Origin: Tilletia caries
Taxonomy: Eukaryota; Basidiomycota; Exobasidiomycetes; Tilletiales; Tilletiaceae
Assembly (NCBI GenBank): GCA_032718865.1
Contig: JALUTQ010000023.1
Span: 49,790-113,789 of the forward strand
Direction: 5' to 3'
Length of the DNA: 64,000 nt
Under the pieces are notes generated by a model. That model was not told the origin of the DNA. It was given only the letters and a program-made list of their open reading frames with translations, and did not search any database. Positions 1,372-55,865 of the stretch are shown piece by piece. The position numbers were made by a program, and so were the translations under genes. Within the stretch, counting starts at the first letter, position 1. Every line of letters starts with the position of its first letter.

Positions 1372-1788
1372 ACCTACAAACATTATAAGATAATTATCCC
1401 CTGTTACTAGAATTAGCATAAAGAAGGTAAACATAGAAAGATATGAGAAAAATCGTTGATTATGTGGGTCTCTACTCATGTAATCCACAGAGAAGATATG
1501 TACAAGAGAAGATACTATAAGTACAGGAAGCAGCATGGATACTGTTAGACTATCAAATAGAAAACCCCAGGATACATCTAGTGTTTCTGAATCTATCCAA
1601 CTAGTAAAATTGATAGACACGGGGGAATCTGAAAGTCCTACTTCAAAAAAAGCAACTATTGCTAGAATTCTAGATATAATAATACAACTACATGTTATAA
1701 AATGAGCTCCTGTAGTCCCTATTTTTCGACCGAATATTCCAGCTCTAATTGAACCTAGCATAGGAAGAAATAGCAGTGTAAGATACAT
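1372..1788 (-). CDS. nad5: NADH dehydrogenase subunit 5, first exon (partial gene)
   Basis: This is the N-terminal exon (139 codons) of the proton-pumping antiporter-like subunit of complex I in the inner mitochondrial membrane. The start is ATG at 1788. Recognisable family blocks are MYLTLLFLPMLG, FGRKIGTTG, WGFLFDSLTVSM, DPHNQRFFSYLS and DNYLIMFVG. The reading is colinear with other fungal nad5 proteins up to the Gly-Trp junction, a usual group I intron site, where the family continues with WEGVG. That continuation is absent here and must lie to the left of the window. AGA codons at residue 15, in IIS-x-ILA and in MS-x-DPH sit where Arg is not expected, whereas the conserved Arg in FGR and NQR are CGA. 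The exon ends in T, as expected before a group I intron. Confidence 0.95.
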
Positions 1789-3022
1789 ATCAATAATCTA
1801 TATATATACATAATTAAACTTTATATTTTCACTTTTCACTTTTTTAAACTTTTTTAAATGCCTCCCCTTGCCCCTTCTTCTTTTTTTTCTATAGAAAAAG
1901 CCAAGGTAAGATCCGGCGCCCCCTTTGTTTTTTCTTCATTATATCTTATCGGCAGGTAAAGAGAGCCGTTTGCTTTTTTAAGTGCTTCCTCGGGCAAAGG
2001 GCGGAGCCTCGGCGGAGCCGTAAAGTTTCTATAATGATAAAAAAAGATAAAAAAGCAAAGACGGCAAAGGCAAAGCCGGTTACTTTCTGTTAGCTTTATG
2101 ACTGCTTTTTTTATATATAAAAAGTAGGGGTATGGGTATATACCCCTACTTTTTAATTATATATGGCAGTCTACCATTTTTATATTTGAAAAAAGGAGTC
2201 CTCCTAGGAGTCTTGCTATGTTAAAAAGCAATAAAAAAAGTTATACAAGGAAAGAGGTAACACCTAGTATAATAAAGTTTAATCGTATAATAATAATTAA
2301 TCTGACAACATAAAACTAGAATATAAACGGTAGTGCTTGAAAGGAGAAAGCCTACTATTTTTATCATTTATCTAAATCGGTAGAGTGCCCGGCCTTTTCA
2401 CACGTCTTGATCTGCGGGAAAATTATCACCTCCTTATCAATGGTTAGGTTCTTAACCCCTACTTTTTTATAATATTATAAAAAAAAAAGGAATTTTGAAT
2501 TTTCAAAGACGCCCTATTTAAAACTTTTAAATTTGCACTTTTTTATTATATGTAATAAAAAAGCAAAGATAGTAGCGGGCCATTTATTTACCGATTAAGA
2601 TTAAAATGATTGAAAAGAACTATCCTAGACCGACCACGAATAAAAATCTATTGTCTATAATACTGTAAAAGAGGGGGAGGGTTATCTTTTTTTATATATT
2701 AAAAAAGACAAAAATAAATAAATAAAGGGAAGAAATATTTGTATCAATAAGCAACACTAATAATATTTCTATAATTTACGTTAGATTTCGTCTGTATACC
2801 CTTTTTTAATCTGCCTTCTTTATGCCCCTAGGGCGATTAGGAGTACACGTTCTTACTTATATTTTTATGTGGATAGAGGGGGGGGGCGGGGGCTAGGTCA
2901 CTACCCTCACATTTCGGCCCTCCTTATCGACAGGCAAGGGACCCTAGGTTTTTAACTTTTTTTATCTATAATCGGCGGAGCCGTAAAGCTGTCGATATCT
3001 TTTTTTTCTACTTTTTTTTTTA
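1789..3022. repeat. Repeat-filled spacer nad4L-nad5
   Basis: No gene is visible. Present are the composite repeat at 1857-1915 (CGCCTCCCC arm, CTATAG centre, CCAAGGTAAGATCCGGCG end), a Lys/Phe-coding AT palindrome, GC hairpins around 1985-2030 (GGCGGAGCC), and a G-run block at 2877-2890. In many fungi nad4L and nad5 overlap or abut. Here they are pushed about 1.2 kb apart by repeats. Confidence 0.6.
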
Positions 3023-54203: not shown

Positions 54204-55865
54204 ATGATAATACTTCTTCTAATTATACCTCTTATTGGTATACTATTTATACTTCCATGTGCAGCTTATAGTACAGAAAACGTAATGCCTGGATCATATA
54301 AAAAGAATAGCAACCAGACTGTAAGAATAAATGAAAAAAAGGATTCAATATCCAATAACAATCTCTCATCGACAAATAAAGGGCCTAGCCATTCTCAATT
54401 TAATAGTATAGATTCTACAATCCTTATGAAAAAAATAGCTCTGGTAACTAGTATAATTAACTTTATAGTTTCTATAGTTCTTTGGGGTGAATTTGATTCT
54501 AGTACTAGAGAATACCAATTTGTTTCTTCTGCTAGTAGCTTTTATTCTGAAGATACAATATCTCCCAGTCTCCCTACGGGGGATATAGGGAGACGAGAAA
54601 TTTCTTTTTGTTATCTTCGTTTTGGTATCGATGGTATATCCCTATACTTTGTTCTCCTTACTACATTTATAATTCCTATATGTATACTATCCAACTGGGA
54701 TAACATCCAACATAATATAAAATTTTTTCTAATTAATTTTCTACTACTTGAAACACTACTTATAGCTGTATTTACAGTTTGTGATCTACTACTATTCTAT
54801 ATATTCTTTGAAAGTGTTCTAATACCTCTTTTCCTAATAGTGGGTATATGGGGAGGTAGTTCTACACGAATACGTGCTGCATTCCTACTATTTCTATACA
54901 CTCTATTTGGTTCCCTATTTATGCTACTATCTTTTCTATATATTTATTACAATATAGGAACAACGGATTTTCAAATAGTGTCTCTATCTGAAATAAACCC
55001 GGTAGTACAAAAAATACTATGGGTAGGTATATTTATTAGTATGGCTATAAAAACACCAATATGGCCACTCCATCTATGGCTATTCCGGGCCCATGCTGAA
55101 GCACCTGTAGGAGGAAGTGTTATTCTAGCTGGTCTTATTCTAAAACTAAGACTTTACGGATATCTACGAATACTAATACCAATGCTTCCTGATGCTACTA
55201 GTTATTTTTCACCACTAGTTCAGACAATGGCACTAATAAGTATAATATACGCAAGTCTTTCTACGGTACGGCAGACAGATTTTAAAGCTCTAGTGGCTTA
55301 TTCTAGTGTAGCTCATATGGGAGTAGTAGTTCTAGGTGTATTCTCTAATACTATTCAAGGTATTGAAGGTTCTATACTACTAGGAATAGCACATGGTCTA
55401 GTAAGTCCTGCCCTGTTTATTCTAGTAGGTAGAGTACTTTATGATCGATATCATACACGTGTTATCATGTATTATCGAGGACTTACTACTTATATGCCAA
55501 TATTTTCTATTATGTTCTTCCTCTTTACTATTAGAAATACAGGTATCCCACTATCTGCAAATTGGGTTGGAGAGATGATGTCTCTAATGGGTGCTTTCCA
55601 AAAAAACACAATTATTGCTAGTATAGGTTCTATAGGTATTGTTCTTAGTGCTAGATATTCTATTTGGCTATATAATCGAGTAAGATTTGGGTCGTGGAGT
55701 AAATATCTAGGTTACACAAAGGACCTTAATCGTCGAGAATTTATGCTACTTCTGCCTCTTCTTATTACTACTTTCCTATTTGGTATATTCCCAAATAGAA
55801 TCCTTAATGACATTCATGTATCAGTGTCTCATCTAATTTACTCTTTATTTTCTAGGGGTTTGTAG
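54204..55865 (+). CDS. nad4: NADH dehydrogenase subunit 4
   Basis: 553-residue antiporter-like subunit of complex I; fungal proteins are nearer 480-500. ATG 54204. Core blocks FGIDGISLYFVLLTTFIIP, FRAHAEAPVGGSVILAG, LPDATSYFSPLVQTMALIS, YSSVAHMGVVVLGVFSNTIQ and ANWVGEMMSLMGAF are intact. Extra residues about 25-70 are a hydrophilic Asn/Ser insert (ENVMPGSYKKNSNQ...), and residues about 112-132 contain a short hairpin insert. AGA codons at residues 316, 410, 444, 484, 494 and 532 stand for Ala/Gly/Val of the family (LKL-x-x-YG, NRV-x-FG); conserved Arg are CGN. Ends with TAG. Confidence 0.96.
   Translation: MIILLLIIPLIGILFILPCAAYSTENVMPGSYKKNSNQTVRINEKKDSISNNNLSSTNKGPSHSQFNSIDSTILMKKIALVTSIINFIVSIVLWGEFDSSTREYQFVSSASSFYSEDTISPSLPTGDIGRREISFCYLRFGIDGISLYFVLLTTFIIPICILSNWDNIQHNIKFFLINFLLLETLLIAVFTVCDLLLFYIFFESVLIPLFLIVGIWGGSSTRIRAAFLLFLYTLFGSLFMLLSFLYIYYNIGTTDFQIVSLSEINPVVQKILWVGIFISMAIKTPIWPLHLWLFRAHAEAPVGGSVILAGLILKLRLYGYLRILIPMLPDATSYFSPLVQTMALISIIYASLSTVRQTDFKALVAYSSVAHMGVVVLGVFSNTIQGIEGSILLGIAHGLVSPALFILVGRVLYDRYHTRVIMYYRGLTTYMPIFSIMFFLFTIRNTGIPLSANWVGEMMSLMGAFQKNTIIASIGSIGIVLSARYSIWLYNRVRFGSWSKYLGYTKDLNRREFMLLLPLLITTFLFGIFPNRILNDIHVSVSHLIYSLFSRGL
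54569..54593. repeat. Inverted repeat inside nad4
   Basis: TCTCCCT (54569-54575) and AGGGAGA (54587-54593) flank a short loop in an N-terminal part of nad4 that has no counterpart in other nad4 proteins; read in frame as GDIGRREIS. Confidence 0.6.

Follow-up and report, generated by a model that had tools for sequence, protein, structure and literature searches.

Green algal mitochondria provide the closest described systems. In the order Marsupiomonadales (pedinophyte green algae), the available sections of the published account describe AGA and AGG (AGR) as alanine codons, read by a UCU-anticodon tRNA with a G3:U70 acceptor pair and the discriminator base A73, a combination treated there as an alanine signature (PMC12574857). 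The same sections report UUA and UUG (UUR) as missing inside genes and located at gene ends where present, with no tRNA for UUR. In Sphaeropleales, the available part of the literature describes a change of AGG, and sometimes AGA too, from arginine to alanine, for which prior disappearance of the codon has been proposed (PMC6821328). Mitochondria of Pycnococcus (Pseudoscourfieldia) use UUA and UUG as stops, as cited in parts of both accounts (PMC6821328, PMC12574857), and Scenedesmaceae are described in partial accounts as using UCA and UCG as stops. Here we analysed a whole mitochondrial contig (C18, 113,789 bp; one of 40 contigs in an assembly of 38.1 Mb) of the basidiomycete Tilletia caries, of which bases 49790–113789 form a 64,000-nt stretch (the window). 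This mitochondrion very probably reads AGA as alanine (AGG probably too) through a UCU tRNA bearing the alanine signature, and probably ends reading frames at UUR alongside UAA and UAG.

The alanine reading of AGA had been put forward in a preliminary description of the window and was upheld by codon columns, by relatives and by the tRNA. That description knew alanine at AGG from green algae, which holds but understates the record: AGA as alanine has also been published for some sphaeroplealean and marsupiomonadalean mitochondria. It knew of no such report in fungi, and we likewise found no fungal report of AGR as alanine or of UUR as stop among the papers listed by our searches, which covered the open-access literature (subscription papers and preprints lie outside it).

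We assigned each codon of the core genes to alignment columns of reference sequences. The references comprised 119 Cox1 proteins (P0002–P0120), 119 Nad5 proteins (P0242–P0360), each drawn from the best 120 of 8,000 scored, and 25 further mitochondrial or bacterial stretches. The cox1 set omits a doubled 856-aa protein (P0001), and the nad5 set omits the Tilletia walkeri protein (P0241); P0089, P0075, P0336, P0338 and similar proteins were kept despite arginine at odd columns. We excluded tblastn matches below 28% identity, and loci L039, L041 and L042 were unused. At least three references covered 3,892 codons and at least four, the number needed for scoring, covered 3,789.

AGA was the sole departure from translation table 4 (the code of fungal mitochondria) among 56 testable codons. 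The table-4 residue was the best fit for all 55 others, six of which rest on five or fewer columns each, and AUA fits isoleucine (241 columns). For AGA (51 columns), alanine had a log-likelihood of 46.4, serine −16.2 and arginine −80.7; the codon-to-column inference that the preliminary description had proposed as a check thus favours alanine. Because AGA alone left its table-4 residue, its agreement with alanine is far beyond chance. Alanine was returned in 2000 of 2000 bootstraps and was the best fit separately in cox1 (10 columns), nad5 (15 testable of 20 AGA codons) and the remaining genes (26 columns). Strongly conserved AGA columns (n = 19) contain alanine in 14 cases, glycine in two, and asparagine, threonine and leucine in one each.

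All 14 AGA codons named in the preliminary description are present and in frame at the positions it gave. Its assignment of these sites to alanine columns stood for 10 of them, which lie in alanine-majority columns (the atp9 site and atp6 codon 195, Table 1; seven cox1 sites, 107/122 to 125/126; the cob site, 5/8). It did not stand for atp6 codon 165 (alanine in 1/4), nad4L codon 61 (Thr 8, Val 3, Ala 1), nad4 codon 316 (Gly 11, Ala 1) or nad4 codon 494 (mixed, Ala 2/11). Site numbers in cox1 differ by 3–4 between that description and our exon model because one mini-exon is absent from the model, and in cob by 18 because our frame begins upstream of the methionine. Conserved arginines had been described as written CGA, CGT or CGG; this applies to 49 of the 52 columns with at least 70% arginine, the other three having CAA, ACA and TCC, and none AGA.

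Relatives place alanine at many of the same sites. The closest Cox1 by identity among the matches listed (P0002, 91%; best 120 of 8,000) has alanine at nine of the ten AGA sites and serine at one. A fungal contig within a bacterial assembly (fungA), with 86% Cox1 identity over residues 1–419, has alanine at 23 of 41 AGA sites and arginine at none, and contains no AGA or AGG in its own 2,493 aligned codons. This 16.4-kb mitochondrial contig (L054) carries a CCU-anticodon tRNA despite the lack of both codons in the aligned set. Mitochondrial contigs, fungal or otherwise, also seem to be present in several bacterial genome records (L020, L043 and others), and contamination is probable. A second fungal contig, fungB, has alanine at 20 of 58 AGA sites and arginine at none. 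It contains 67 AGA codons of its own, and since 10 of the 14 displayed face CGN (N, any base) arginine codons here, AGA encodes arginine in fungB. The deposited T. walkeri Nad5, which has 95% identity to the present protein (among the matches listed, best 120 of 8,000), gives arginine at 13 of 15 well-covered AGA columns, alanine at one and isoleucine at one.

We identified a UCU-anticodon tRNA gene on the minus strand at C18:26331–26402, outside the window (ARAGORN; Rfam tRNA, 44.4 bits). Its acceptor stem, GGGCAAA/UUUGUCC, contains the G3:U70 pair that the preliminary description had suggested seeking in a UCU tRNA elsewhere in the genome, and its discriminator is A73. Rfam delimits 20 of the tRNA genes, and among these G3:U70 occurs only in tRNA-UCU and tRNA-Ala(UGC). 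Four tRNAs bounded by ARAGORN alone (Ile, Leu, Ser-GCU and Gln) have G:C or A:T at position 3:70. The Asp and Glu tRNAs have G:U by ARAGORN boundaries; Rfam shifts these one base onward, giving G:C and U:A. The UCU tRNA of fungB has C3:G70. When compared with the tRNAs of its own and two other fungal contigs, tRNA-UCU best matched Lys (0.70/0.67), Met (0.66) and Ala (0.65/0.64) tRNAs. A tRNA-Arg(UCG) for CGN codons is also present on C18.

UUR is missing within aligned reading frames and sits at gene ends, which marks a second change, additional to the one claimed in the preliminary description. No UUR occurs among the 3,892 aligned core codons, where about 233 would be expected from other frames, or among 1,957 codons in 13 Pfam-matched stretches of mobile open reading frames (ORFs) and rps3, where about 118 would be expected. 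UUR makes up about 6% of codons in other frames of the same DNA (534/8,922; 234/3,888). The 13 stretches come from 20 ORFs run against Pfam, of which six had no family and one matched COX1 only. Leucine in the aligned core is written CTN only. UGA is likewise missing from the 3,892 aligned core codons, and occurs seven times in the mobile-ORF and rps3 stretches. We found no tRNA-Leu(UAA) on C18 with ARAGORN in general mode or with Rfam down to an E-value of 5; Rfam missed two tRNAs seen by ARAGORN (Ser-GCU and Gln), so an odd tRNA-Leu(UAA) could escape.

In several core genes UUR stands where the frame should end, or close to that point. In nad2, fungA ends ...SIYSY-stop and the present gene ...SIFSY-TTA-TTA. 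In nad4L, fungB ends ...IAIQS-stop and the present gene ...ISIxS-TTG, with fungA stopping one codon earlier (...ITLR). In nad1, TTA stands 15 residues beyond the last aligned column, where fungB continues for 17. In nad6, TTG follows an end that is typical by eye. Thirty frames contain UUR-free stretches of at least 180 codons; 13 of these end at UUR, at least one being an exon that enters an intron, and 17 end at UAA or UAG.

The nuclear mitochondrial release factor MRF1 of the same assembly (L018) shares 98% identity with its T. controversa counterpart; the values for T. indica and T. horrida are 82% and 74%. Together with the Nad5 match to T. walkeri, these identities place the genome in Tilletia. 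MRF1 has glutamine at the usual histidine of the recognition loop, where more distant homologues have histidine in 64 of 116 and glutamine in 51. The glutamine-bearing distant homologues include Ustilaginomycotina and Malassezia. Alanine and glutamate occur at two positions in the four closest homologues, three of them from Tilletia (4/4 for each residue, versus 2/116 for each). Bacterial release factors have the same alanine and glutamate, and for this reason we did not count the pair as support. No insertion was seen in the stretches of MRF1 displayed. A fragment with a GGQ motif at C33:1290928, below the Pfam cut-off, was taken as rescue-factor-like.

These observations fit a model in which alanyl-tRNA synthetase would recognize G3:U70 and A73 and charge tRNA-UCU with alanine, and this tRNA would read AGR, with AGG probably decoded by wobble. 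Arginine would be encoded by CGN through tRNA-Arg(UCG), and leucine by CTN, with UUA and UUG no longer serving as leucine codons. Translation may end at UUR either by action of the release factor or because ribosomes stall there and are rescued. AGR likely first became rare in this basidiomycete mitochondrial line and was then captured by the altered tRNA. Alanine at AGR and stops at UUR thus probably coexist in the Tilletia mitochondrion.

Several observations weigh against this model. The plurality residue is not alanine in 28 of the 51 AGA columns (Gly 6, Ile 5, Ser 4, Leu 4, others), AGA is more scattered than the GCN codons (0.91 versus 1.55 per column), and 25 of the 76 modelled AGA codons went unscored with fewer than four references. 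For the mobile ORFs, comparison of the reverse transcriptase with solved structures gave too few informative AGA sites to assign the codon. The cloverleaf fold of tRNA-UCU was matched by 28 of 200 shuffles. In eight of the 13 core genes the frame closes with TAA, and UUR is absent beyond the last aligned column; atp8 likewise ends in TAA. Five other nad4L references extend 8–12 residues past the last aligned column, versus two here. In nad4, TTA directly follows the last aligned column and references continue for 3 to 32 residues; in nad6, the last 136 codons before TTG are unaligned. ARAGORN in its lax metazoan mode gives 'Leu(taa)' matches of 55 and 61 nt, which are presumably false. Damage to MRF1 of the algal type would be expected, and its recognition region has no clear Tilletia-specific change.

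In the most probable alternative, AGA encodes alanine but UUR is only unassigned and avoided, with ribosomes stalling at gene-end UUR and being rescued. This overlaps the stalling branch of the model above, and the undetected tRNA-Leu(UAA), the lack of a clear Tilletia-specific change in MRF1 and the GGQ fragment are all consistent with it. That UUR stands where four aligned core genes should end, or close by, and again after the unaligned nad6 end, argues for a stop function instead, and 13 of 30 long UUR-free frames ending at UUR is a high number for a shunned codon. We regard mere avoidance as possible but somewhat improbable. It is very unlikely that UUA and UUG are ordinary, disfavoured leucine codons. 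The strong CTN preference is what such a bias would produce, but a bias would hardly clear the mobile ORFs as well, and two other fungal contigs write 40% and 81% of their leucines as UUR.

Many animal mitochondria read AGA as serine or glycine, and the same could apply here. Serine was the second-best residue, and the plurality residue is serine or glycine in 10 of the 51 AGA columns (4 and 6). The log-likelihood gap of 62.6 between alanine and serine, the alanine signature of tRNA-UCU, and the strongly conserved columns, which include two with glycine and none with serine, make this reading highly unlikely. Arginine with genuine substitutions, or transcript editing, is scarcely credible: tRNA-UCU retains C35 in its anticodon and DNA cannot reveal editing, but no arginine-conserved column has AGA, 11 of the 19 other residues outscore arginine at AGA, and editing of AGA to GCN would have to alter two bases in each codon, at as many as 76 sites.

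AGG occupies no aligned core column and was too rare for the same test. A displaced older copy of the nad3 3' end, 92% identical to the current one, carries AGG at a codon that is AGA in the gene now in place, in a column with alanine in six of eight references. This copy gives a weak hint that AGG, too, may encode alanine.

We also scored other proteins from the cox1 and nad5 searches, known from protein records alone, over 4 to 22 non-arginine columns at which each shows arginine. These odd-arginine columns are best fit by alanine in P0089 (14.6 versus −11.3 for serine), P0359, P0328 and P0314, and narrowly so in P0336 from Apiotrichum gamsii (4.5 versus 2.4 for serine). They are best fit by serine in P0075 and in P0338 from Sympodiomycopsis kandeliae. 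The A. gamsii mitogenome annotation used code 4. AGR as alanine or as serine in other fungi is a lead suggested by these columns, and such signs in basidiomycete proteins make the question approachable with public data.

The features of the window are collected in Table 1. C18 encodes cox1–3, cob, atp6, atp9, nad1–6, nad4L, rps3/VAR1 and both rRNAs, as well as atp8, and ARAGORN identified 24 tRNA genes; a 25th match of 181 nt was taken as false. Codon 16 of atp8 is presumably an alanine position.

Table 1. Features of the 64,000-nt window of the T. caries mitochondrial contig (window coordinates unless marked C18)
Feature	Position	Strand	Details
nad5 exon 1	1372..1788	−	Remainder outside the window, C18:49283–49867 and 45881–46957
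TTG, putative nad4L stop	3122..3124	−	Next TAA 33 codons downstream
nad4L	3125..3388	−	88 codons; TTG directly after
atp9	5456..5677	+	AGA codon 49 at 5600–5602 (TY-x-ILGF); Ala in 5/6 references
cob	10722..18858	−	Modelled frames 18598–18858, 16203–16412, 10722–11405, other parts missed; 7 AGA codons
LAGLIDADG_2 ORF	13650..14408	−	UUR 0/173 Pfam-matched codons
GIY-YIG/NUMOD3 ORF	15206..16219	−	334 codons without UUR, then TTA plus TAA/TAG stop
cox1	20993..37438	−	Modelled exons 37274–37438, 34477–34521, 33088–33150, 31693–31803, 30143–30463, 25124–25513, 22448–22645, 20993–21274
cox1 AGA codons (n = 10)	37376, 33094, 30365, 30239, 30233, 25352, 25259, 22628, 21128, 21017	−	8/10 in Ala-majority columns
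LAGLIDADG_1 ORF	30559..31884	−	UUR 0/96 matched codons
GIY-YIG/NUMOD1 ORF	33406..34647	−	UUR 0/242 codons spanning first to last Pfam match
cox1 exon 1 fused in frame to reverse transcriptase/maturase ORF	34721..37438	−	906 codons, UUR 0
atp8	43544..43690	+	48 codons, TAA end; AGA codon 16 at 43589–43591; identified by eye
atp6	45091..45876	+	AGA 45583 (codon 165, mixed column) and 45673 (codon 195, Ala 4/4)
cox2	49841..50617	+	Single AGA = last codon; TAA stop; no UUR
nad4	54204..55844	+	547 codons, 9 AGA; TTA directly after
TTA, putative nad4 stop	55845..55847	+	TAG comes later at 55863–55865

Further features were also noted. A 631-codon frame at window positions 25593–27485 has 20 AGA codons, no UUR and no Pfam match, and a GIY-YIG ORF at 6174–7484 bears a run of 17 alanines. 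Free ORFs sit behind atp6 (window 45896–47730) and nad3 (C18:35435–36983), of which only the nad3 one has a Pfam GIY-YIG match, and displaced older 3' ends of atp6 and nad3 lie beyond them. This arrangement looks as though a mobile element had supplied new gene ends. The intergenic regions of C18 contain many similar short repeats, which translate as FFIIYNKKA or [11 protein letters not shown]. A scan of viral contigs for relatives found none.

The mobile ORFs are as free of UUR as the core genes. That they avoid these codons as strictly suggests that the code limits what settles in the genome. If the proposed code is correct, it would also be the first arginine-to-alanine and the first leucine-to-stop change in a fungal mitochondrion within the literature searched. 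Proteins translated with the usual code would then need correction, as would phylogenies and tests of selection that draw on such Tilletia records; the arginines printed in T. walkeri Nad5 illustrate this. Public mitogenomes of T. indica and T. walkeri date from 2013 or earlier (accessions in PMC3633354, consulted in part). The mitogenomes of T. indica, T. walkeri, T. controversa and Salmacisia were compared in a study whose main text does not contain the term 'genetic code', and whose available passages say nothing of an altered code (PMC10849329).

Compared with known codes, the Tilletia mitochondrion differs from table 4 at AGA and UUR and otherwise agrees with it at every testable codon. 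The Marsupiomonadales share both changes, but the available sections of their account infer methionine for AUA in some species and describe a visibly altered mtRF1a (PMC12574857), whereas Tilletia AUA fits isoleucine and its MRF1 has no comparable specific change. Sphaeropleales share the change from arginine to alanine, but often for AGG alone, and Hydrodictyaceae read UAG as alanine, according to the part of the account available (PMC6821328). Pycnococcus shares the UUR stops but is a green alga, and AGR as alanine is unstated in the available parts of the accounts that cite it. Given the great distance between fungi and green algae, convergence is the simplest account of the likeness to the algal code. 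The same pair of changes would then have arisen in two distant kingdoms, hinting at shared rules for which codons can change. We consider it likely that the double change in Tilletia and in one green algal order is convergent and that basidiomycete mitochondria form a hot spot so far overlooked, with erroneous deposited proteins, in which AGR, once it had become rare, was captured repeatedly – as alanine in Tilletia and perhaps in A. gamsii and others, and perhaps as serine in S. kandeliae.

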